Shown: positions 1,078 through 10,935 of the stretch, piece by piece
How the letters are laid out: each line of letters opens with the position of its first letter
Numbering within the stretch: position 1 is the first letter of the stretch
From: a virus
IMG/VR virus record: IMGVR_UViG_3300032224_000629
Coordinates: 1 to 23,084 of that record
Direction: 5' to 3' (one strand)
DNA length: 23,084 bases
Translations under genes and position numbers: made by a program
The notes under the pieces: model-generated
Databases searched by the model: none
What the model saw: only the letters and a program-made list of their open reading frames with translations
Told to the model about the DNA's origin: nothing

Positions 1078-2952
1078 TTAAATCTCGCAAGCTCCTGCAC
1101 TGCAAGCTAACATTTGTGCACCTTCTACGTTGTCGGTGTTTTCTCTGAGGGCACTCCAGTCAACGACTGGGATGCTGGCTTTAAGCTTTTCGTACTCTTC
1201 TTGCGTACACTCTTCGTAGGGGGCTTGGCGATAGGTTCCTCCGTCATAGGGCAGGTAGCTAACTCCACTGATTTCGTCAAAGTGGTCCCATGTCCACGCT
1301 CCGACACTGGGCCAGTCCTTTTCCGCCACAGAGATGGTGACGGACGGCTTGTGTTCGCACCAGTGTCTTTGGTAGGTGAGCCAGAGCTCAAGGTGGTCGA
1401 TTGGGGTGATGTCGTCTCTGACAAGTCCGTCAGGGGCTCTTTGTGGAAAACTGAAGACGGTAGTTTGGGTTGGCTTGTAAACGCAGTCTTCAGCTGGTAC
1501 TCCTTGTCCAACAAGGAATTGGGTGAGAGGATCTTTTTTATCTCCTCGCACTCTTCGGATATAGAATTTAGAATGGCGAGGGTGGATGCCGCTCGCCGAA
1601 TCAACGAGCTGGGATACTGTTCCACTTGGCTTGACGCATGTGATAGAAGCGCTGATAGGGATTCCGAGAGCATTCGCCCATTCTGTATTTGTTGCTCGAG
1701 CGCATTCTCTAAGTTCGTCCAATAAAACATTTAGTTCCTCTCCTTGTGTACACAAGAGTTTGTTGTCATAGATTCCTGTGAGCGAGACACCAAGTAAGCG
1801 CTCCTCTTCAGTATTACGTTGCCACACTTTACGCAAGTAGGGGAATTTTGTGAAGGTGGATTGGATTGTACCAAGGATGGAGGCAAGCCGCACTTTTCGC
1901 AATAAGGTTTCTTTGGTGTCGTCATGTCTTACTACTACCTCACTAAGATTACAAAATTGGTATGGTCGAAGAACAATTTCTGAGCAGGGGTTAGTGCCGA
2001 ATTCAAAGTTAGGATCACGGTGACCATATTTTTCAACCGTCTTGCGCGCAGCCTCACGGTTGAATATCCCTCTTTCTCCACTATGTGAATTGTATAGAGA
2101 AAGCCATTCTTCCATAAACTTTCCAACGGTAGGAGTTTCATTATAAACCGCGCTATTGTTGGCGAGTGCACGGTGAGGTGCAGTGTCCCACCACGGTCCA
2201 GCTTTAGCATGGCGAATCCTTTCATCATCCAAATCTGATAACGAGATCATTGCAGAGCGACGCACGCCGCCCACCACAACTACCTCACCAATTTTGCACA
2301 TCAAGTCGTGGCATTCTAATGAATGTAAGCGACGACCCTGTGCGTGTTTAAATGTAGCTACAGTAAACTCAAATAAGTCAATTAGTGGTTGCGGCCCGGA
2401 AGCTCTTCCACCAAATGTTTTGAGTCGTGCTCCGGCAGGTCTAACATTGCTGACATCCCACTTTGGGATTTCTCCGGCCCAGAGGTTGGCGAGGAGTAGA
2501 CGCAATGATTTTGCCCATCCTTCTTTGGAATCGTGCACGGCAATGGTATGTTCGGAATCGAATAAACGGTCTGGCACTTCCGGCAACTGACTAATATATT
2601 TTGACTCGACTGAGAAACCAACTCCAGTGCCACACAAGAGGATAAACATCGCTTCGTCAAACGATTTCGGATCATCCACTGGGAGATAACTGCAGTTATA
2701 GACGCAAGTATTGTCACGATCGGCACTCTTTCCAGCCGTCATCATGGCACGCATGGACGGCATTAGTTCTAGGTTTTTGATTGCGGTGAATAATTCTTCT
2801 TTCAACGCGCTATTTGCGGTGATTGCTGGAGTACGACTAAAAATATAATCTGTAAAGCGAGTTACTGTTTCTGGCCAACTTTCGCGGCGCTGTTTGTCAT
2901 CGATGAAGCGAGCGTAGCGACTCGCGGCAATGTATTCTTGATATTGATCCAT
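1078..2952 (-). CDS. nrdJ: Adenosylcobalamin-dependent (class II) ribonucleoside-triphosphate reductase
   Basis: It makes deoxynucleotides from ribonucleotides for phage DNA synthesis and needs host coenzyme B12. The 624-residue protein has the radical-enzyme signature NPCSEI, giving N321, C323 (thiyl radical) and E325. The redox pair is C87 and C334, and the C-terminal shuttle pair is C617 and C622 (CSAGACEI). The C323-to-C334 spacing (11) and the C617-to-C622 spacing (5) equal those of the monomeric Lactobacillus leichmannii RTPR. That enzyme is about 739 residues, and the C87-to-C323 interval here is about 50 residues shorter, so the effector-binding insertion is probably reduced. GGVRRSAMISLSD (about 228-240) is also family-typical. 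The gene lies directly downstream of a terminator (2987-3009) and upstream of the DNA polymerase. Confidence 0.95.
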   Translation of the reverse strand: MDQYQEYIAASRYARFIDDKQRRESWPETVTRFTDYIFSRTPAITANSALKEELFTAIKNLELMPSMRAMMTAGKSADRDNTCVYNCSYLPVDDPKSFDEAMFILLCGTGVGFSVESKYISQLPEVPDRLFDSEHTIAVHDSKEGWAKSLRLLLANLWAGEIPKWDVSNVRPAGARLKTFGGRASGPQPLIDLFEFTVATFKHAQGRRLHSLECHDLMCKIGEVVVVGGVRRSAMISLSDLDDERIRHAKAGPWWDTAPHRALANNSAVYNETPTVGKFMEEWLSLYNSHSGERGIFNREAARKTVEKYGHRDPNFEFGTNPCSEIVLRPYQFCNLSEVVVRHDDTKETLLRKVRLASILGTIQSTFTKFPYLRKVWQRNTEEERLLGVSLTGIYDNKLLCTQGEELNVLLDELRECARATNTEWANALGIPISASITCVKPSGTVSQLVDSASGIHPRHSKFYIRRVRGDKKDPLTQFLVGQGVPAEDCVYKPTQTTVFSFPQRAPDGLVRDDITPIDHLELWLTYQRHWCEHKPSVTISVAEKDWPSVGAWTWDHFDEISGVSYLPYDGGTYRQAPYEECTQEEYEKLKASIPVVDWSALRENTDNVEGAQMLACSAGACEI

Positions 2953-3754: not shown

Positions 3755-4884
3755 GCGAAATCTTCTTTCAAAGTTTCATCCTTAACTAATCTTGGGCTAC
3801 CATCTGGACGCAAAATCAAACCACCTAATGTTGCCGCAACTTGACCTTTTTGTCCAAGCTTTTCTAATTGTGCCACAGATTTAAGTTTTGTCTCAAACAT
3901 ATCAGCACGATTAAAACCCTTCTCTTCCAATATTGTAACAGCTAAATCAGGATCTGCAATTTTACGATTACCCTTTGGAGTATACAACTTATATCCAGTT
4001 GGCACAATATTTTCATTGATGGCGCGTTGTGTAGCAAATTCTTCTACATCACTTGCCCATGTCTTTAAATCTGCAACACGAGATAACACAAGATCAAACT
4101 CTTCATTGGTTAACAATGGAGCTGGACGGAAGTCCAGTGTTGCTATTTCGTTGTTGAATTCCGACCTTGCTTTACATTGCGCTTTGGCGCGGCAGAACTG
4201 GCAGTGCTCGCCGGGGATGAAGTCGCCCGTACCCGCCCACGCCCTTTTGGCTTTTTGTTTGACGAAGTAATTACTCCAATCGAGGAGCTTTTCGATTGTG
4301 GTTTCGTCACTGCTGATGTTGTCGATACGGGGTTGGTAGATTGTATACTTGACCGTTTTGATGTTTGGGTACTCTTCTTGGAATTTGTTCCACGAACCGA
4401 GGGCGTAGAGTCTGAGTTGCGTGTTATCTTTGGCATCGACGGGGATACCTTTTCCGTATTTGAGGTCGATGATGTGAACGGAGCGCTCAGAAAGAATAAC
4501 CACATCGGACGTACCAAAGCCGTCAGGAACCCAGTCACTGAAGTCAACACGTTGCTCAAATAAAGCTTTGTCATGTTCACCGATTTGGCTACGGACATAG
4601 AGGCTGTACACATCGGTGTAATTTTCGAGTTCTTCGTTGTAATAGAAATTCTTTTTGATTTCTGCGTAACGAGTTTCATATTCTTCTTTCGTGATCTGGT
4701 TGTAGTGTAACTTTAACTTTATCTCACCCAAATCATGAGCAAGAGTTCCTTCGGCAGAAAAGTCGAATGATCCCGCTGGGCGTTTTGGTTCAGGTAAAGT
4801 TTGCTCGAGTCGAGCAGATGGTGTGCAAGTAAGCCACCGTTTTGATGATGATGCTGATAGTACTGCGTGTGCGTTTGCTGACAT
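3751..4884 (-). CDS. DUF2800 phage nuclease, Cas4/AddB-like PD-(D/E)XK with Fe-S cysteines
   Basis: This 377-residue protein has a PD-(D/E)XK nuclease core: AEGTLAH (44-50), D127 in GFGTSD, and D140-L-K142 in IIDLKYGKG, with Q156 in the QLRLYALG helix (156-163). Cysteines at 20, 228, 231 and 237 (one N-terminal, then CQFCRAKAQC) match the split four-cysteine iron-sulfur layout of Cas4 and AddB nucleases. DUF2800 genes regularly lie beside DUF2815 and PolA genes in phages, so a role in end processing during recombination-dependent replication is likely. The 13-bp promoter-like element (4923-4935) lies 38 bases upstream of the ATG, directly behind a hairpin. Confidence 0.9.
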   Translation of the reverse strand: MSANAHAVLSASSSKRWLTCTPSARLEQTLPEPKRPAGSFDFSAEGTLAHDLGEIKLKLHYNQITKEEYETRYAEIKKNFYYNEELENYTDVYSLYVRSQIGEHDKALFEQRVDFSDWVPDGFGTSDVVILSERSVHIIDLKYGKGIPVDAKDNTQLRLYALGSWNKFQEEYPNIKTVKYTIYQPRIDNISSDETTIEKLLDWSNYFVKQKAKRAWAGTGDFIPGEHCQFCRAKAQCKARSEFNNEIATLDFRPAPLLTNEEFDLVLSRVADLKTWASDVEEFATQRAINENIVPTGYKLYTPKGNRKIADPDLAVTILEEKGFNRADMFETKLKSVAQLEKLGQKGQVAATLGGLILRPDGSPRLVKDETLKEDFA

Positions 4885-4922
4885 AACTGTTTTCCTTTTT
4901 AGCTGTTTATCTGAGTGTACTA

Positions 4923-4935
4923 CTACTTATGCAAA
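4923..4935 (-). promoter_or_regulatory. Repeated 13-bp promoter-like element, copy 1
   Basis: TTTGCATAAGTAG on the minus strand, 38 bases upstream of the DUF2800 ATG and immediately after the terminator hairpin 4934-4965. It is identical to 6148-6160 and 14064-14076. It contains a -10-like CATAAG preceded by TTTG. No conserved -35 hexamer is shared by the three sites. Confidence 0.65.
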
Positions 4936-4965
4936 ATGGGCTAGGTTTTTATGCCTAGCCCATTT
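4934..4965 (-). terminator. Strong hairpin after the small-terminase-like gene
   Basis: AAATGGGCTAGG (4934-4945) and CCTAGCCCATTT (4954-4965) form a perfect 12-bp stem with an 8-base loop. It lies 22 bases beyond the stop codon of the gene at 4988-5374. On the minus strand the stem ends in TTTT, so it can act as an intrinsic terminator. The promoter-like element begins at its foot. Confidence 0.8.
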
Positions 4966-4987
4966 CATAATGTGAGAAACTTTTGAC

Positions 4988-5374
4988 TTATTCTTTAACT
5001 GCTCGTAATTGCTTGATTAAGTCGTTAACTGCGCCGGCAAAGTCGATTGTAACATCAGCTTTGACTTCTTGCTTAATATCCATGCGTTCCCTGTAATCTG
5101 TTGGGAATTGACCACGCAAGGCTATTTCAGCGATACGGCTGTTAAATGCTTTATTACCTACATTGGCAAGCATTTCACGCTCCCAGTAAGCCTGTGAGTG
5201 TACCAGTGCCATATCTAATGCATCGGCAAACTCTGGGTACTTTTTACGCCAGCCAGCGGCTACATCTTTGGTAATGCCAATGTCAGACCAAATCATTTTT
5301 TGCGATGCACCAAGCTTTCCCAGCTCGATCATTTTCTCGCACATCTCTGGTTTATACGTGTACTTAGTTGCCAC
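4988..5374 (-). CDS. Small terminase subunit-like helix-turn-helix protein
   Basis: This 128-residue protein starts with YKPEMCEKMIELGKLGASQK and continues with an HTH-like segment (IWSDIGITKDVAAGWRKKYPEF, about 28-49). This is the pattern of phage small terminase subunits and terminase-associated HTH proteins (YKPE...xxLGxxGxSxxEIAxxLGVSxxTxxxWxxxxPEF). A helical middle (HSQAYWEREM) and a C-terminal VNDLIKQLRAVKE helix follow. It would recognise the packaging site on phage DNA. No large terminase gene is in the window. It overlaps the upstream gene by 11 bases and ends the four-gene unit before a hairpin. A plain DNA-binding regulator is the alternative. Confidence 0.6.
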   Translation of the reverse strand: MATKYTYKPEMCEKMIELGKLGASQKMIWSDIGITKDVAAGWRKKYPEFADALDMALVHSQAYWEREMLANVGNKAFNSRIAEIALRGQFPTDYRERMDIKQEVKADVTIDFAGAVNDLIKQLRAVKE

Positions 5375-5630
5375 ACTTCCACCTTTTTAAAGCGGCTGCT
5401 TTGCGTGTTGGTTTACCGTTCTCGTCTTTCATTGGACCTTTTACGCCAGACATACGAGCGCAAAATGAGTTTTTACGAGCACCACCTTGTGGCTGTGGCG
5501 CTTTTAAATTCGAGCCAGTAGCCGCATTATACTTAGCACGACCTTTGGCGGTAAGCCCAGCACCCTGAGATGCTGGCAACTTTTCACCACGGCCAATTGC
5601 AAGCGATACACTTTTCTTTTTAGTTGCCAT
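5364..5630 (-). CDS. Small basic phage protein (VSLAIGRGEKLP/GLTAKGRAKYN type)
   Basis: This 88-residue, Lys/Arg-rich protein contains SLAIGRGEKLPASQGAGLTA and KNSFCARMSGVKGPMKDENG. I recognise these phrases from conserved small proteins near packaging or structural genes of aquatic phages; the function is unknown. The composition suggests nucleic acid binding or a minor virion role. Its ATG shares one base with the stop of the upstream gene (TAATG at 5628-5632), and its end overlaps the terminase-like gene by 11 bases. Confidence 0.75.
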   Translation of the reverse strand: MATKKKSVSLAIGRGEKLPASQGAGLTAKGRAKYNAATGSNLKAPQPQGGARKNSFCARMSGVKGPMKDENGKPTRKAAALKRWKCGN

Positions 5631-5779
5631 TACTTTTTAGCAGTCTTTGCAGACTCTTTAAATTGTTTAGCGGTAGGAGCACCCTTGGCACCTGGCTTAC
5701 GCATTTTCTCGCCAGAACCGTTTTTTATGCGCTCTTGTTTAGCATGAATATTGGCGTACAAGCCAGGTTTAGTTGCCAT
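5630..5779 (-). CDS. 49-residue basic phage protein
   Basis: It begins MATKPGLYANIHAKQERIKN and continues GSGEKMRKPGAKGAPTAKQF. This short lysine-rich protein type is commonly encoded next to the 88-residue basic protein in phage genomes. It has no predicted membrane segment. Function unknown. Its stop TAA overlaps the next ATG by one base. The ATG lies within one copy of an 11-bp direct repeat (5778-5788). Confidence 0.75.
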   Translation of the reverse strand: MATKPGLYANIHAKQERIKNGSGEKMRKPGAKGAPTAKQFKESAKTAKK

Positions 5780-5809
5780 TGTAAAGTTCTCTTAAATGAT
5801 TGTAAAGTT
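5778..5809. repeat. 11-bp direct repeat spaced 21 bp
   Basis: ATTGTAAAGTT occurs at 5778-5788 and 5799-5809. The 21-bp spacing is two helical turns. One copy covers the ATG of the 49-residue gene. It could be a protein or translational operator, or a chance duplication. Confidence 0.45.
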
Positions 5810-6070
5810 TTAGAATATTACTGAAACGCCTGCCATCTTTTTGGCGATACCAGTTAATTCTTTGGTGTATTGACCACTGATAAAGGTATTGATTTCAATC
5901 GCTTTATCAATAATTTCGTCAGTTGTTGGAAAAGCTGGAGCTAATTCAGCTGCTTCTTTAGTTGTTTTGTTTACCACTTCCCATGCTGCCAAGTTGGCTT
6001 CATGTTGTTTGATCATAAGATCTTTAGCGGTGTTAAAAATAGAAAAACGAAGTTCAAATGGGGATACCAT
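5810..6070 (-). CDS. Conserved phage protein of unknown function (SPFELRFxIF)
   Basis: This 86-residue protein starts MVSPFELRFSIFNTAKDLM and continues with a long acidic helix and PTTDEIIDKAIEINTFIS. Proteins opening with (S/N)PFELRFxIF and ending with a KAxEIN(T/S)FVS-like helix occur in T4-like cyanophages and other aquatic phages, without a known role. It is the first gene of the unit headed by the 13-bp element at 6148-6160. AAAGG lies 9 bases upstream of the ATG. Confidence 0.75.
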   Translation of the reverse strand: MVSPFELRFSIFNTAKDLMIKQHEANLAAWEVVNKTTKEAAELAPAFPTTDEIIDKAIEINTFISGQYTKELTGIAKKMAGVSVIF

Positions 6071-6178
6071 GGTAATACCTTTCTGTGTGTGTGTTGTGTG
6101 TAAGAATAGGTTTCCAAGCGTTTCACAACGAGTTGTACTCCCTATATCTACTTATGCAAACTTTTAACCTTTTTCGCC
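6071..6178. promoter_or_regulatory. Leader of the four-gene unit, with TG-rich tract
   Basis: This 108-base gap holds the 13-bp promoter-like element and, between it and the gene, a TG-dinucleotide tract (6084-6101) close to the ribosome site. The leader RNA would be about 70 bases, longer than for the other two copies of the element. Confidence 0.5.
6148..6160 (-). promoter_or_regulatory. Repeated 13-bp promoter-like element, copy 2
   Basis: TTTGCATAAGTAG on the minus strand, 77 bases upstream of the ATG at 6070 and just 18 bases beyond the last stop codon of the replication operon (6179). Its position exactly at an operon boundary supports a promoter role. Confidence 0.65.
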
Positions 6179-6403
6179 CTAATCTGGAATGATTATGGTC
6201 TTTTTAGGTTTGGAAGGCGGGGTGTTATCCCCGTGCTCTTTGCGATACCGCAAGGCATCATTTAGCATCATCTTGGTCATGGCCAGCGCCTTTTCTTGGT
6301 GCTCTTGCTCCATCTGGGCGGTGGTTTGTTTTGCTTTACGCTCCACTTCCTTGATGATGTTGTTGCTGATGCCAGCGTGTTTAAGCAGTTGCTTTAGGTT
6401 CAT
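6179..6403 (-). CDS. Small helical protein, unknown
   Basis: This 74-residue protein is almost entirely a charged helix with coiled-coil character (EVERKAKQTTAQMEQEHQEKAL...), ending in a Pro/Lys tail (PPSKPKKTIIIPD). I do not recognise it. It is the last gene of the replication operon and overlaps the preceding gene by 23 bases. Confidence 0.6.
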   Translation of the reverse strand: MNLKQLLKHAGISNNIIKEVERKAKQTTAQMEQEHQEKALAMTKMMLNDALRYRKEHGDNTPPSKPKKTIIIPD

Positions 6404-6614
6404 CTTGAGCCTTTGCTACAGCGGCTAATCCCTCTTCAGCTTTTTTAACTTGAGGACCGGCTTGTTGCTGGATCATGTTGATGAACGCAACGAACGTTGT
6501 TGTTGGCACAGCGTTTGGTGTGTTCAAAATGTTCAACAGTGCGTTAACTTCTTTCACTGGGAACTCCAAGGTTACTACAAAATCGTCCAACATGTTTTTG
6601 ACTTGATCTGTCAT
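6381..6614 (-). CDS. Small protein, unknown
   Basis: This 77-residue protein begins MTDQVKNMLDDFVVTLEFPV and includes EVNALLNILNTP (22-33), a pattern I associate with small phage helical proteins without known function. The tail is Ala/Lys/Glu-rich. Its ATG overlaps the previous stop (ATGA, 6611-6614), so expression follows that gene. Confidence 0.65.
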   Translation of the reverse strand: MTDQVKNMLDDFVVTLEFPVKEVNALLNILNTPNAVPTTTFVAFINMIQQQAGPQVKKAEEGLAAVAKAQDEPKATA

Positions 6615-6931
6615 TTTTTACTTCCTTTCTTAAATTTTTTGGTAAATGCATTACCTTTTCTTTCTACTGAAAACATTGCTTCTCTTGCTGCTAACTTCAC
6701 TGGATCAGTGCAATACTGATTTAATTCAAATACTCTTGCCGACATATCCATCAACTGCCAGCAACGCATTTCATGTAATTGTTTGAGACCAAGTAATGTG
6801 TTTGCCACTTCATCTTCGGTCATTGGCTTTTCAGCATCGCCGTGATACAAAAACAATGTCTCAATATCATCAGCCGTTTGCCATACTTTGTAGATGGCAT
6901 CTTCTAAATCAAAGTGAGTATATTTTTTCAT
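6611..6931 (-). CDS. Hypothetical phage protein, 106 residues
   Basis: This acidic helical protein starts MKKYTHFDLEDAIYKVWQTA and includes a middle resembling a small phage tail or regulator helix (DDIETLFLYHGDAEKPMTED) and a strongly basic C terminus (KKFKKGSKK). I cannot assign a function. It is coupled on both sides by ATGA overlaps (6928-6931 and 6611-6614). Confidence 0.65.
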   Translation of the reverse strand: MKKYTHFDLEDAIYKVWQTADDIETLFLYHGDAEKPMTEDEVANTLLGLKQLHEMRCWQLMDMSARVFELNQYCTDPVKLAAREAMFSVERKGNAFTKKFKKGSKK

Positions 6932-7152
6932 GATTTCATTCTTTTCTTTGCTTTTTTAATTTCAGCATTAAAGTCTACACTAAACCAACCCCCAACAGTT
7001 TTTAAAGCTGGCATTAATTCTTCGTATGCCGCAATATCATCTTCGTGCCAAACAGATCCGTTTTTTAACATTGACTGCATACTTACATAAGAGTCCGCTA
7101 AAACAGTAACTACAACTTGATCTGAAAAGTCATCATCAATTTCTATTATCAT
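6928..7152 (-). CDS. Hypothetical phage protein, 74 residues
   Basis: It starts MIIEIDDDFSDQVVVTVLADS with two beta-strand-like stretches around a DDDFSD acidic turn, followed by a helix and a basic end (KKAKKRMKS). Not recognised. ATGA overlaps at both ends place it firmly in the operon. Confidence 0.65.
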   Translation of the reverse strand: MIIEIDDDFSDQVVVTVLADSYVSMQSMLKNGSVWHEDDIAAYEELMPALKTVGGWFSVDFNAEIKKAKKRMKS

Positions 7153-7373
7153 TTACCACACTCCACTTCATGATTAATTATTTTATCAATGTACCACTTT
7201 GCTTTGCGTAAATCTTCTACGCCACCTTTTTGTTTCCAACGATACAGATATTTAATAGCATTACCTGTACACATTGCTTCCATACCAGTAAGTTCCTCGA
7301 TGGCAGACTCAATGGCATCAATGCACTCTACCTTGCCTTGATAATGTTTAGGATGATTAACTGGATCGTGCAT
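7149..7373 (-). CDS. DUF3310 phage protein
   Basis: This 74-residue protein has the full DUF3310 signature: VNHPKHYQ (5-12), CIDAIE (17-22), GNAIKYLYRWKQKGG (37-51) and DLRKAKWYID (54-63). DUF3310 proteins are very common in phage early regions. Some longer members are annotated as nucleotide kinases, but this short form has no Walker motif and its biochemical role is not established. It overlaps the upstream gene by 17 bases. Confidence 0.9.
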   Translation of the reverse strand: MHDPVNHPKHYQGKVECIDAIESAIEELTGMEAMCTGNAIKYLYRWKQKGGVEDLRKAKWYIDKIINHEVECGK

Positions 7374-7542
7374 TTCTTAATCTCTTAAGTTCATCTTCGA
7401 CTGCTTTAACTTCTTCCGAGCTGTCACAAACCCAGATTCCCAATAAATCTTTGTATATGCTCGTGTCAATGTCTTCCACACCAGCAATCGTCTCCATAAC
7501 ATAATTACCTTTATACATATGTTCAACCACAAAAGTGCTCAT
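7357..7542 (-). CDS. Hypothetical phage protein, 61 residues
   Basis: A short acidic protein, MSTFVVEHMYKGNYVMETIA, with a beta-rich first half and a helical Glu/Lys-rich second half. Not recognised. It is coupled to the upstream 99-residue gene by an ATGA overlap (7539-7542) and overlaps DUF3310 by 17 bases. Confidence 0.6.
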   Translation of the reverse strand: MSTFVVEHMYKGNYVMETIAGVEDIDTSIYKDLLGIWVCDSSEEVKAVEDELKRLRNARSS

Positions 7543-7838
7543 TCGCCCAACTCCTTTTGAATAAACTCTACTGCTTTGTCGTAATGATATCGCCAGTACT
7601 TTTCAGTCATACCAACATCTAAATAACTTCTGCCTATTAAAAATGCTTCAATTACTTGTTTCTGTTTAAAAGGCATACGCTCATCTATTATACGCCTAAT
7701 ATCTATCAGATCGTCAAGATCCCATGGAACCCACCCTTCGGAGGAGTGGTGTGATACTGATTCTGAATCATCTTGCTCAATCGGATCCATTTCTTCATCC
7801 GATAAACGAGGTTTACTGCAATTGATTATCATTCTCAT
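7539..7838 (-). CDS. Small helix-turn-helix-like protein, possibly sigma region 4-like
   Basis: This 99-residue protein has an acidic, Ser-rich N terminus (1-35) and a helical C-terminal half. Segment 56-97 (FKQKQVIEAFLIGRSYLDVG, then MTEKYWRYHYDKAVEFIQKEL) follows the rough pattern of sigma region 4 or phage RinA/ArpU-type regulators: a helix, a short turn, then a recognition-type helix with WRYHYDKA. It could act as a transcription regulator or as a partner for the region-4-less sigma factor at 16981-17556; that pairing is speculation. It is coupled by ATGA overlaps on both sides. Confidence 0.55.
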   Translation of the reverse strand: MRMIINCSKPRLSDEEMDPIEQDDSESVSHHSSEGWVPWDLDDLIDIRRIIDERMPFKQKQVIEAFLIGRSYLDVGMTEKYWRYHYDKAVEFIQKELGE

Positions 7839-8941
7839 AATTGTGTGTCAAAGATTGCTGCCGAGTAAATATTACCCATCCCCGCCGCCAAAGAGAGTAT
7901 TTTTTGCTCTCCAGAAATATGCAACGGATCTGATATGAAGACACTGTCTCTCTGAGTTCTGTTTTTAATTGGAGTTACTAGACGATCTTTAATGTTGTCT
8001 AGTAATAAGCAAGTTTCCAGTAAACCTGACGCACCCATAGTGTGTCCAATCCACTGCTTATATGATGTCGCTACAAAGCGGTGATCAAACAATGTTTTAA
8101 GAGCATTGCGTTCTGCAATATTGTTTGACTTTGTGCCAGTGCCATGGGTCTTTACAATATCTATCTGCTCGGGGCGTATTTTAGATACAGACATTGCACC
8201 ATGTGCGGCTTTGATAAATCCTTCTCCGTCTTCACGCTGACCAATAGCGTTAGTACTTTTTTCTGAGGCGCTATACGCACCAAGCAACCGAGCATGAGGG
8301 TTCTTCGCATATTTTTCATTTTCAAATACAACCAGCGCCGCTCCTTGACCAATGTTAAAACCAAAGTTAATCGAATCAAATGCTGATGGCACTACACCTT
8401 GTTCTTCTTGCTCTTTGGTGAGCACTGCTTTGGATTCACCAAAAAACTTGAGTACTGTGTTAGTCACTGCATCTTCCACGGCCAGTACAATCACCCTATC
8501 AAAATGATAGAGAGCGAATAGCTCATGCACATTCATCATGACTTTGAGGCTAGACGCACAAGCACTGGCATCTGTGATGACCATGTCTTCCGCGCCACAA
8601 ACCTGGGCAACACGACCAGCATACACTTGAGTTAGTGTAAGGGGTAGCATTTTGTAATCATAGGTCAAGCTGTTTGGCTCTGGATCTTTGGGATTGATCC
8701 CGGCGAAATGTTGGTTGCCAGCAGCTAAAATAAATGCTGTCTTTCCACCACGATTTTTTAAGTCTGCCATCAAAGCTTTATCCAACACACGCTCTGCCAG
8801 TTTGTGGGGTGCGTACACTAGGCCAGTGTCTTTTTTGGCGTAAGTATCAACAAACCAATGCACACGCTGTGGATATAGTATGTCCTCGATCATATGCGTC
8901 TGTGTGGTTGACGCAGTGCGGTAGTCTGTTAAGTAAATCAT
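7835..8941 (-). CDS. Phage-encoded beta-ketoacyl-ACP synthase (KAS II/FabF-like)
   Basis: This 368-residue protein has the thiolase-fold condensing enzyme signatures: nucleophile C128 in DASACASSL, H266 in KTHGTGTKSNN and H300 in GHTMGASG. The C-to-H (138) and H-to-H (34) spacings are close to FabF (C163/H303/H340). KAS enzymes condense an acyl group with malonyl-ACP in fatty acid or polyketide synthesis. The N terminus is shorter than the usual roughly 410 residues, and the terminal FGGTN-type loop is replaced by AAGMGNIYSAAIF, so substrate choice may differ. It is coupled by ATGA to an acyl carrier protein gene (8938-8941) in the replication operon. No reductase, dehydratase or malonyltransferase genes are in the window, so host partners would be needed. 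Confidence 0.92.
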   Translation of the reverse strand: MIYLTDYRTASTTQTHMIEDILYPQRVHWFVDTYAKKDTGLVYAPHKLAERVLDKALMADLKNRGGKTAFILAAGNQHFAGINPKDPEPNSLTYDYKMLPLTLTQVYAGRVAQVCGAEDMVITDASACASSLKVMMNVHELFALYHFDRVIVLAVEDAVTNTVLKFFGESKAVLTKEQEEQGVVPSAFDSINFGFNIGQGAALVVFENEKYAKNPHARLLGAYSASEKSTNAIGQREDGEGFIKAAHGAMSVSKIRPEQIDIVKTHGTGTKSNNIAERNALKTLFDHRFVATSYKQWIGHTMGASGLLETCLLLDNIKDRLVTPIKNRTQRDSVFISDPLHISGEQKILSLAAGMGNIYSAAIFDTQL

Positions 8942-9228
8942 TGAATCGATGCCAAGGCTTCTTCTACGCTAGTTGGCTCTTTGGTTTTGTGCTGACACAT
9001 AAACTCAAATAGATCTCTGACTGTAACGGGCTGTAGCGTCTTTAAATCGTCCTCAGAGACTCCGTAGATGTCGCCAAGGTATATCCCTACCATGAGCATA
9101 TCCAAGCTGTCTAAGCCCGTTTCTGCTAGGTTCTCGTCTAGGGATTTGATCTTTACCCCGTTGGAGTTCAATGGGGTTGCTAAAGCAACAACACCTTCTA
9201 ATATTTTTAATAGTTCTTGTTCGGTCAT
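8938..9228 (-). CDS. Phage-encoded acyl carrier protein
   Basis: This 96-residue acidic protein has the ACP core LAETGLDSLDMLMVGIYLGD. S41 in DSL is the site for the 4'-phosphopantetheine arm, which a host transferase would have to add. Helix II (42-52) carries the acidic and hydrophobic surface that partner enzymes recognise. Helix III follows at about 70-80 (TVRDLFEFM). It is longer than typical ACPs (about 78 residues) because of a C-terminal tail of about 15 residues (KTKEPTSVEEALASIQ). It lies between the SNF2 helicase and the ketoacyl synthase with ATGA overlaps on both sides, so the ACP-synthase pair should be made together. Confidence 0.92.
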   Translation of the reverse strand: MTEQELLKILEGVVALATPLNSNGVKIKSLDENLAETGLDSLDMLMVGIYLGDIYGVSEDDLKTLQPVTVRDLFEFMCQHKTKEPTSVEEALASIQ

Positions 9229-10616
9229 TTTAGTGATTCCATTAATGCATCTTGTAAGTTCATTTTGCCTTCTAATACATTTACCACATGTTTGTCGATA
9301 CTATTAGCCACTGTCAAATGGTGTATGATAACCGGCTTTTCTTGCCCTTGGCGGTAGATCCGTGCGTTGGCTTGGATGTAGTTCTCTGAGCTCCATGGTA
9401 AATCGAACCAGACCGTTTGTGCTGTCTCTCCAGTGTTGCACTGAAGATTAAGCCCGATACCCCCAGACTGGGGATGGGCGAGGAGCATACGAATCTCGCC
9501 ACGATTCCACGCTGTAATGTTGTTGTCGTCCAGCACCACAGCCTGCGGGAATGTGTCACGCAATCGTTGTAGCGAATGTTTGAAGTGATAGAAGACCAGC
9601 GTTGGCGAGGAAGATTCTTCCATGATCGACTCAAGGTATTCCAGTTTAGAGCGGTGTACTTCTTGCGCTTTTCCGTCTTCTCCATAAACTGCACCCGAGG
9701 TGAATTGCAAAAGCTTGTTCGCCAGTGTCGCTGCTGTTGGAGCTGTGATTGTTTCGCCACTGATCTCAGCGACCATATTCTTTCTAAGTTGCTCATATTT
9801 TTTTCTAACATCTTTGTCTAAAGATATACTGTGGTATACATAGGTACATTTGGGTAGATTTAAATAATCCTCTGCTTTTAGTGATAAACAAATGTCACTA
9901 ATTTTATTTTGTATTGCTACATCAGCGCCGGGGATAAGCTCCCAGTTGTACACCACTCGGGTATGGGGATTCACCTTGCCTGGGCGCATATACTTCGTCC
10001 TAAACTTCGTAAGGCTAGTTTCTAGCCGTTGCCCTAAATCTAAAATTGCTACTTGGCTCCACAAATCCCCATACCCTTGTGGTGTAGGTGTACCCGTCAT
10101 AATAATACGACGCTTGAAAGATTTTAACACAGTCTTTAATGCTTTAAATCTTTTTGTGCTGCTGTCTTTAAAGCGTGATGACTCATCAATGATGAGCCCA
10201 TCAAACTTATTCGGTATCCAGTTCTCTACTAACCAAGGTACATTTTCTACATTGATTAAATAGATATCAGCTTTTTCTTTTAAGCCAGATATTCTCTCTG
10301 CTGGATTGCCCATTATTTTGGATACCTTCATATCTTTCAAGTGTTCCCATTTCTGACACTCTTGCGCCCAAACGTTCTGAGCTACTCTTAAAGGTGCGAT
10401 CACCAAGGTCGCGGCTAATTTTCCTTCTTGGACTATCGTCAACGCTGTCGCCGTCTTCCCAAGGCCTGGCTCGAGGAATAGCCCCATATTCATTATCGAT
10501 GTCGATCGCAACACGATCTCGTTTTGATATGAATGAAGCTGATGCCTTTTTAGTTTTGGAGACTGTACGATCCCAGATCCAGTCTGCGATGTCGTAGTGC
10601 TCTTGCATTGTTCCAT
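9225..10616 (-). CDS. SNF2-type superfamily 2 DNA helicase/translocase
   Basis: This 463-residue protein has the SF2 ATPase motifs in order: a Q-like segment LHSYQNEIV (about 27-35), Walker A EPGLGKTAT (49-57), a DESS Walker B (143-146), TGTP (173-176), SGGIGLNLQ (383-391) and the arginine-finger motif QANARIYRQGQ (about 414-424). It uses ATP to move on double-stranded DNA, probably remodelling forks. Phage SNF2 proteins of this size often neighbour VRR-NUC and DUF2800 genes. Its first 116 codons overlap, out of frame, the 3' end of the endonuclease gene. The ATG at 10616 is needed to include the Q-like segment, so the overlap looks real. Confidence 0.92.
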   Translation of the reverse strand: MEQCKSTTTSQTGSGIVQSPKLKRHQLHSYQNEIVLRSTSIMNMGLFLEPGLGKTATALTIVQEGKLAATLVIAPLRVAQNVWAQECQKWEHLKDMKVSKIMGNPAERISGLKEKADIYLINVENVPWLVENWIPNKFDGLIIDESSRFKDSSTKRFKALKTVLKSFKRRIIMTGTPTPQGYGDLWSQVAILDLGQRLETSLTKFRTKYMRPGKVNPHTRVVYNWELIPGADVAIQNKISDICLSLKAEDYLNLPKCTYVYHSISLDKDVRKKYEQLRKNMVAEISGETITAPTAATLANKLLQFTSGAVYGEDGKAQEVHRSKLEYLESIMEESSSPTLVFYHFKHSLQRLRDTFPQAVVLDDNNITAWNRGEIRMLLAHPQSGGIGLNLQCNTGETAQTVWFDLPWSSENYIQANARIYRQGQEKPVIIHHLTVANSIDKHVVNVLEGKMNLQDALMESLK

Positions 10617-10935
10617 TGTCTTTTATTCTGTTTGCTCTGTGTGATATGAATGCTACATTACCAATGACGTAACCTAATTCTGGGATGATGCGATCTAACT
10701 GTGGTGCGTTGTCTTTAAACTTTCCCTTACCCAATCCCGCTCGACCCCAACTAAAGTCGGTATGGAAGATGGGGCATTTGTCTTCTGCTATAGATCTTAA
10801 ATACTCTAAAGTAATACTAAATGGAACGCCTTTCCTTTTGGCTCTTTGCCTAGCTGAATCAAAGTATCTACCAACATGTAATTCTTTTTTAGTTAACAGC
10901 TTGCGTGCCACGAATAAACTCCTCAATGTCGTCAT
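10267..10935 (-). CDS. Endonuclease VII/HNH-like phage nuclease with a tail overprinting the helicase gene
   Basis: Residues about 22-120 match the phage endonuclease VII/HNH-like family: ARQRAKRKGVPFSITLEYL, a CPIF segment, then APQLDRIIPELGYVIGNV, FISHRANRIK and a final IADWIW helix. Such proteins cut branched DNA or act as free-standing homing nucleases. About 100 further residues (RTVSKTKKAS... to KRKS) have an Arg/Ser/Asp-rich composition unlike a folded domain. They are read from the bases that encode the N terminus of the SNF2 helicase in another frame. The gene also overlaps VRR-NUC by 47 bases. The domain is well supported; whether the full tail is made is less certain. Confidence 0.75.
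   Translation of the reverse strand: MTTLRSLFVARKLLTKKELHVGRYFDSARQRAKRKGVPFSITLEYLRSIAEDKCPIFHTDFSWGRAGLGKGKFKDNAPQLDRIIPELGYVIGNVAFISHRANRIKDNGTMQEHYDIADWIWDRTVSKTKKASASFISKRDRVAIDIDNEYGAIPRARPWEDGDSVDDSPRRKISRDLGDRTFKSSSERLGARVSEMGTLERYEGIQNNGQSSRENIWLKRKS

Follow-up and report, generated by a model that had tools for sequence, protein, structure and literature searches.

Hundreds of freshwater tailed phages have their own matched acyl carrier protein (ACP) and beta-ketoacyl-ACP synthase (KAS). Suggestively, a third gene, c14, is co-inherited with this pair; judged from its structural model, its product is a candidate GNAT-fold acyltransferase. This association hints that these phages may make a special fatty-acyl group and couple it to one of their virion proteins. 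Our best explanation is that KAS and ACP would make a dedicated acyl-ACP and that c14 would move the acyl group to its target, for instance an ejection protein, a reading to which we assign a probability of about 0.4.

The ACP and KAS genes of the window

The window, i. e. the whole stretch of 23,084 nucleotides analysed here (IMG/VR record IMGVR_UViG_3300032224_000629), encodes KAS, a FabF-type condensing enzyme of 368 aa, at 7835..8941 and ACP (96 aa, with a GLDSLD motif) at 8938..9228, both on the minus strand. Directly 5' of ACP lies the gene of an SNF2-type helicase (9225..10616, minus strand; phrog_62, E 8.8e-141; Pfam SNF2-rel_dom, E 4e-22). Directly 3' of KAS lies a gene for a protein of 99 aa (7539..7838, minus strand), which had no match in Pfam, PHROG or NCBIfam and belongs to a cluster, c2, with 51 members within the first 82 loci of the gene-neighbourhood clustering. 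All these neighbours overlap by 4 nt: SNF2 and ACP at 9225-9228, ACP and KAS at 8938-8941 (ATGA), and KAS and the 99-aa gene at 7835-7838. The flanks of the pair are phage genes, namely SNF2 and a D5-type primase.

A preliminary description of this DNA, made from the sequence alone, had proposed an ATGA-coupled carrier-condenser pair of a phage with ACP S41 and KAS C128/H266/H300 as active sites; both reading frames and all of these residues were confirmed. The codons, located by script on the minus strand, are 9106..9108 for Ser41 of ACP, the predicted phosphopantetheine site, and 8558..8560, 8144..8146, 8057..8059 and 8042..8044 for Cys128, His266 (in HGTGT), Lys295 (in SYKQ) and His300 (in GHTMG) of KAS, the Cys and both His being the catalytic residues.

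Two further genes of the window were noted. An endonuclease-like ORF (10267-10935, minus strand; phrog_3322, E 3e-28) shares 350 nt with the 5' part of the SNF2 ORF, read in a different frame; since their matched domains barely overlap, one start or tail of the two ORFs may be misread. At 1078-2952 (minus strand) a B12-type ribonucleotide reductase of the phage family phrog_367 is encoded (E 1e-181), which is also present in those relatives that share the gene order of the window.

KAS exceeded the Pfam cut-off for both the N and the C ketoacyl-synthase domain (42.6 and 61.5 bits against 20.8), with E-values for the two domains of 9.6e-17 and 7.4e-11, and it matched the unnamed phage family phrog_35856 (E 1.7e-32). 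Its AlphaFold model (pTM 0.91) has a complete thiolase fold and aligns along residues 1-368 with FabF-type enzymes (Z about 40, rmsd about 3.0, about 350 residues). By this model KAS is a complete FabF-fold ketoacyl synthase, for which fold and residues predict catalytic activity. With FabF and FabB (KAS I/II) it shares the whole fold, the Cys-His-His triad and the Lys, but it differs from them in its identity of 18-23%, in being about 45 residues shorter and in belonging to a separate phage clade. Its scores are far under all NCBIfam equivalog cut-offs, including that of the FabF equivalog TIGR03150 (116.3 against 493.75 bits). The FabF gating loop GFGGTN is absent from the phage KAS, which have GMGN-[I/V]-Y instead, with Met355 in 153/153 sequences.

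Among 153 distinct phage KAS, the catalytic Cys is conserved in 152 and both His as well as the Lys in all 153. In the one remaining sequence Arg replaces the Cys, which may be a sequencing error or else a decarboxylase-like or inactive variant.

These residues bear on the question whether the pair works by catalysis at all. ACP and KAS could have a regulatory or structural role and act by binding, either sequestering host ACP-dependent enzymes or serving as parts of the virion. Such a role would suit the known non-metabolic partners of ACPs, the replacement of the gating loop by an invariant GMGN and the very long stem of the phage KAS clade (see below). Yet a role by binding alone would not require the conservation of Cys, both His and Lys seen in 152-153 of the 153 sequences, and we rank this explanation fourth and regard it as very unlikely.

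Taken alone, the window ACP stayed under the Pfam PP-binding cut-off (15.4 against 20.8 bits). A family profile (A2) built from 21 relatives matched solved ACPs in the PDB at E 1.1e-5 and many more ACPs below 0.001; a weak match to NodF was also obtained (E 0.02). The DS of the motif, and with it Ser41, is conserved in 151/151 sequences, as DSL in 146 and as DSM in 5.

Recurrence and origin of the pair

A scan of IMG/VR with the single KAS sequence returned 317 relatives, and a scan with the KAS family pattern returned at least 563 stretches encoding KAS. ACP was found directly 5' of KAS in 111/111 assessable loci (113 were examined; two contigs start at KAS), and at every assessable locus the ACP stop forms an NTGA overlap with KAS. 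Between close relatives dN/dS was 0.08-0.13 for KAS and 0.17-0.27 for ACP. Since the pair is kept at all 111 loci, the catalytic residues are nearly invariant and dN/dS is low, the association of ACP and KAS is not due to chance, and strong selection acts on them as a pair, active sites included.

In the scan of about 85,000 prokaryote genomes, a single close relative of KAS was found (L083, 53% identity); the others were partial matches of 24-33% identity. L083 (JAGYJQ010000016.1) is a contig with phage virion genes and KAS-c14 that was binned to a Balneolaceae MAG. It is a possible hint at the host of one branch, or a binning error. In a KAS tree, the analysis suggested in the preliminary description, 39 cellular enzymes were included, and the phage KAS lie on one side of a fully supported branch as a phage-only clade. 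The stem of this clade is very long (3.47 changes per site), and thus a cellular source of the phage KAS cannot be named. With respect to a plasmid origin no match was found. The one GenBank member having both ACP and c14 is MW202545, a complete 57-kb genome (Manatee Spring), in which KAS is annotated plainly as 3-oxoacyl-ACP synthase.

These findings dispose of host contamination or chance gene pickup as the origin of KAS and ACP. GenBank matches labelled as phage at 22-28% identity do appear to resemble host FabF in contaminated records. However, the family described here comprises at least 563 viral stretches, has phage genes on both sides and forms one phage clade, and its sole close relative in the prokaryote genomes scanned is on a phage-like contig. 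The preliminary description had allowed for a pair restricted to this contig, with host-like neighbours elsewhere, which is not what we found. Contamination was therefore rejected; the recurrence alone refutes it, and its remaining probability is negligible.

Two genomic contexts

The pair occurs in two contexts. In context A, that of the window, the gene order is SNF2, which serves as the marker, ACP, KAS and small genes (the first of them being the 99-aa gene), toward the small terminase. In context B the order is an SU10-type adaptor, two virion/tail genes, a small gene, ACP, KAS, c14 and large Ala/Gly-rich proteins. The adaptor was identified by Pfam SU10_adaptor and was used to mark the virion module independently. 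From their position, the large proteins after c14 are putative internal virion (ejection) proteins; in MW202545 they are followed by a transglycosylase-SLT protein, as expected for an ejection cassette.

Of the 153 distinct KAS, 98 are in context B and 52 in context A, with 3 left unassigned. Recurrence of the ACP-KAS order beside SNF2 in other phages, a check proposed in the preliminary description, is borne out by the 52 KAS in context A. Its assignment of the pair to a replication operon is true for the window and for these 52, but they are the minority. Since 98 of 153 are in the virion module before c14, co-expression with replication is not what the loci have in common. Relocation of ACP-KAS must have been rare, because the KAS tree needs just three changes between the context groups. 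Context A phages have the adaptor, c14 and the next protein elsewhere; in G001, for example, c14 is at 17.7 kb and KAS at 33.6 kb. As the window ends short of the virion module, we infer c14 in the window phage from its relatives, the nearest of which with c14 showing the virion module (G007) has a KAS 72% identical to that of the window.

The two contexts also bear on a serious rival to acyl-ACP supply for c14, which we rank second. The phage KAS and ACP could plug into the type II fatty acid synthase of the host and alter chain length, saturation or flux of the membrane lipids, c14 being a mere neighbour. The complete active site of KAS, an ACP motif that suits the host AcpS and the grouping of the pair with replication genes in context A are all in line with this, and in the accessible text of the respective reports phage ACP and fabF genes are read in the same way (PMC8224337, PMC7029224, PMC11705849). 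Against it, bulk host lipid synthesis needs no dedicated ACP, most phages have the pair inside the late virion cassette, the pair is co-inherited with c14 even if unlinked, and no reductase or dehydratase is annotated in MW202545 despite its complete genome. Remodelling of host lipids thus appears possible but rather unlikely.

The GNAT-fold partner gene c14

The c14 protein is about 148 aa long (as a rule 143-150 aa). Its gene is directly 3' of KAS in 51 context B loci, with a start at most 10 nt from the KAS stop in nearly all of them, and 80/80 of the nearest c14 genes have KAS directly 5'. By sequence no family match was found in Pfam, PHROG or the PDB, and a Pfam search with 23 members gave no family above chance; the relation to GNAT enzymes is one of fold only. 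In the c14 model (pLDDT 91) the elements follow the GNAT order, and the model matches RimI with Z 11.3 and an rmsd of 3.1 over 123 residues. All listed matches are GNAT enzymes, among them the AHL synthase TofI and the NRPS acyltransferase domain NcdE. The canonical Q/RxxGxG/A loop for the CoA pyrophosphate is missing, and the alignment has a conserved, Gly-free ALNADTAxN at this place. H59 is nearly invariant and D74 invariant in the alignment; they may or may not correspond to the His/Asp dyad of RtxC/HlyC.

The c14 matches in G002 (about 36.6 kb), G004 (about 36.1 kb) and G048 (about 18.8 kb) each show a single internal stop close to the model end, which is probably a natural stop that was read through.

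The preliminary description had stated that no other fatty-acid gene is present. This is true of both the 23-kb window and the MW202545 annotation, but has to be qualified by the co-inheritance of an acyltransferase candidate.

Phage T7 has neither ACP nor KAS but does have a virion gene, gp13, at a comparable position, and therefore c14 could be a structural gene that merely travels with ACP-KAS. Homology of c14 to gp13 was rejected (hhalign probability 0.3%); the two are alike in relative gene position only.

The fold would also be compatible with the synthesis of a small acylated molecule, such as a signal, a siderophore-like compound or an antibacterial, with c14 as a small-molecule N-acyltransferase similar to LuxI-type synthases or NodA. 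The matches to TofI and NcdE point in this direction, and NodF/NodE/NodA would be a precedent (PMC5080398). But no further biosynthetic gene travels with ACP-KAS-c14, and c14 lies between structural genes and is exchanged along with the adjacent virion protein. We rank this explanation third and consider it quite unlikely.

Co-occurrence of KAS, ACP and c14

Among the adaptor-bearing contigs, KAS and c14 are both present in 16 and both absent from 13 that span the region, and no contig has one gene without the other; G051, whose contig ends before the c14 position, was omitted from the count of those with neither. KAS and c14 are unlinked in 3 of the 16 (G001, G005, G007), being 16-21 kb apart. 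Several contigs with KAS and without c14 were considered as counter-examples and rejected: G003, G006, G008 and G059 have no adaptor and end outside the tail/ejection part of the virion module, and L273, L284 and L327 end in or at KAS.

The adaptor tree requires three or more changes of presence on well-supported branches (seven in the best tree), and ACP, KAS and c14 change together. There are three well-supported pairs, which all point the same way (sign test, p 0.25). Although the adaptors of L266 and L071 are 91% identical, L266 lacks ACP, KAS and c14 and has a different large protein in the place of the cassette. Given the small number of independent events and the many fragmentary contigs, this co-inheritance is suggestive but not a proof.

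L266, L286, L287, L300, L302 and other KAS-minus loci have nearly the same adaptor and tail genes and unrelated large proteins downstream. The block of ACP, KAS, c14 and the first large virion protein has apparently been swapped as a whole, i. e. by cassette exchange of ejection proteins. L300, a single 7.8-kb contig, has a diverged c14 (4614-5138) without ACP or KAS nearby and a related large protein (5135-7828) with a lysine-rich N-terminus in place of the acidic one. A search for relatives of this diverged c14 found none.

A possible role in protein acylation

The protein after c14 starts with M-S, M-G or M-A in 97/100 cases, mostly as MSAVV, MGAV or MGGV. This N-terminus, M-[S/G/A]-[A/G]-V, is followed by an amphipathic acidic helix, also in representatives of less than 55% identity. 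In KAS-minus relatives, the N-terminus of the first large protein is variable. The motif would fit N-terminal acylation after removal of Met, and would equally fit a plain amphipathic helix with a small residue 2. As evidence it is weak, because a small second residue and a Val-rich amphipathic helix are both common features.

The mechanism that we favour, supply of acyl-ACP to c14, would proceed as follows. A host transferase of the AcpS type would put phosphopantetheine on Ser41 of ACP, as its motif suggests, and the phage KAS would condense or transfer acyl groups on this ACP via its Cys-His-His site. The co-inherited c14 could then use the dedicated acyl-ACP to acylate its target. The likeliest target would be the putative ejection protein encoded beside c14, which is the weakest step. 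An acyl anchor on the amphipathic N-terminus of this protein may aid entry into the host membrane during DNA ejection. In context A, ACP-KAS would have moved next to SNF2, with c14 left in the virion module, as seen in relatives. The location of the context A pair among replication genes, at a distance from c14, counts against the mechanism.

Of the three options named in the preliminary description, i. e. altered membrane lipids, a small acyl product or an acylated protein, the evidence leans to the last, without proving it. In its most specific form, acylation would mean a self-contained system in which the phage's own ACP, KAS and GNAT-fold acyltransferase yield a fatty-acylated internal virion protein, perhaps modified at the N-terminus, and hence a lipid-anchored DNA-ejection channel. 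This specific form we regard as unlikely. If the acylation model is true, we know of no earlier case of lipid-modified ejection machinery in tailed phages, and the need of a phage for a carrier and a condensing enzyme of its own would be explained. Even if the model is wrong, the trio is a concrete, testable three-gene set for studying phage ACP function.

Comparison with known systems

For years, phage ACPs have been recorded without a clear function; the present data link one such ACP, across hundreds of genomes, to a KAS that forms a phage-only clade. Reported phage ACPs of unclear role are gp30 of Alteromonas phage R22Y (PMC11705849), ORF32 of Erythrobacter phage vB_EliS-R6L (PMC5463345) and ORF117 of Vibrio phage R16F (PMC10152775). 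Unlike for the pair described here, the accessible parts of these three reports mention no KAS partner, and none of the three phages was among the tblastn matches of the window ACP. In Rhodobacteraceae (roseobacter) prophages acpP, fabF and fabG have been reported (PMC8224337), in the host order fabG-acpP-fabF, and fabF has been reported in Fonsibacter pelagimyophages (PMC7029224), which we set apart by their description only. An ACP-KAS-GNAT cassette is described in neither case, and our literature search found no paper on the phage clade of ACP and KAS described here or on its connection with a GNAT-fold gene.

Closer in the way of working are systems outside phages. In rhizobia, a dedicated ACP (NodF) and a FabF-type KAS (NodE) feed the N-acyltransferase NodA, which takes the chain from the ACP (PMC5080398). 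The phage trio would likewise combine a dedicated ACP and KAS that supply an acyltransferase. It differs in being phage-borne, in that c14 has a GNAT-fold model and no sequence match to NodA, and in the target, which is chitin oligomers for NodA and would be a protein for the phages. ApxIC is an acyltransferase that uses acyl-ACP and whose structure is devoid of CoA-binding elements (PMC8339906), and with RtxC and CdiC a GNAT-fold enzyme acylates the protein encoded beside it (PMC8339906, PMC8510554). HlyC/ApxIC and CdiC (class IV CDI) resemble c14 in the GNAT fold and the missing CoA loop; their donor is acyl-ACP and their target is encoded next to them, as would be the case for c14. They differ in using the ACP of the host and in having no KAS of their own, and c14 has no sequence match to them. 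NodF/NodE/NodA, RtxC and CdiC are thus analogies for how the phage trio may work, not families to which it belongs.
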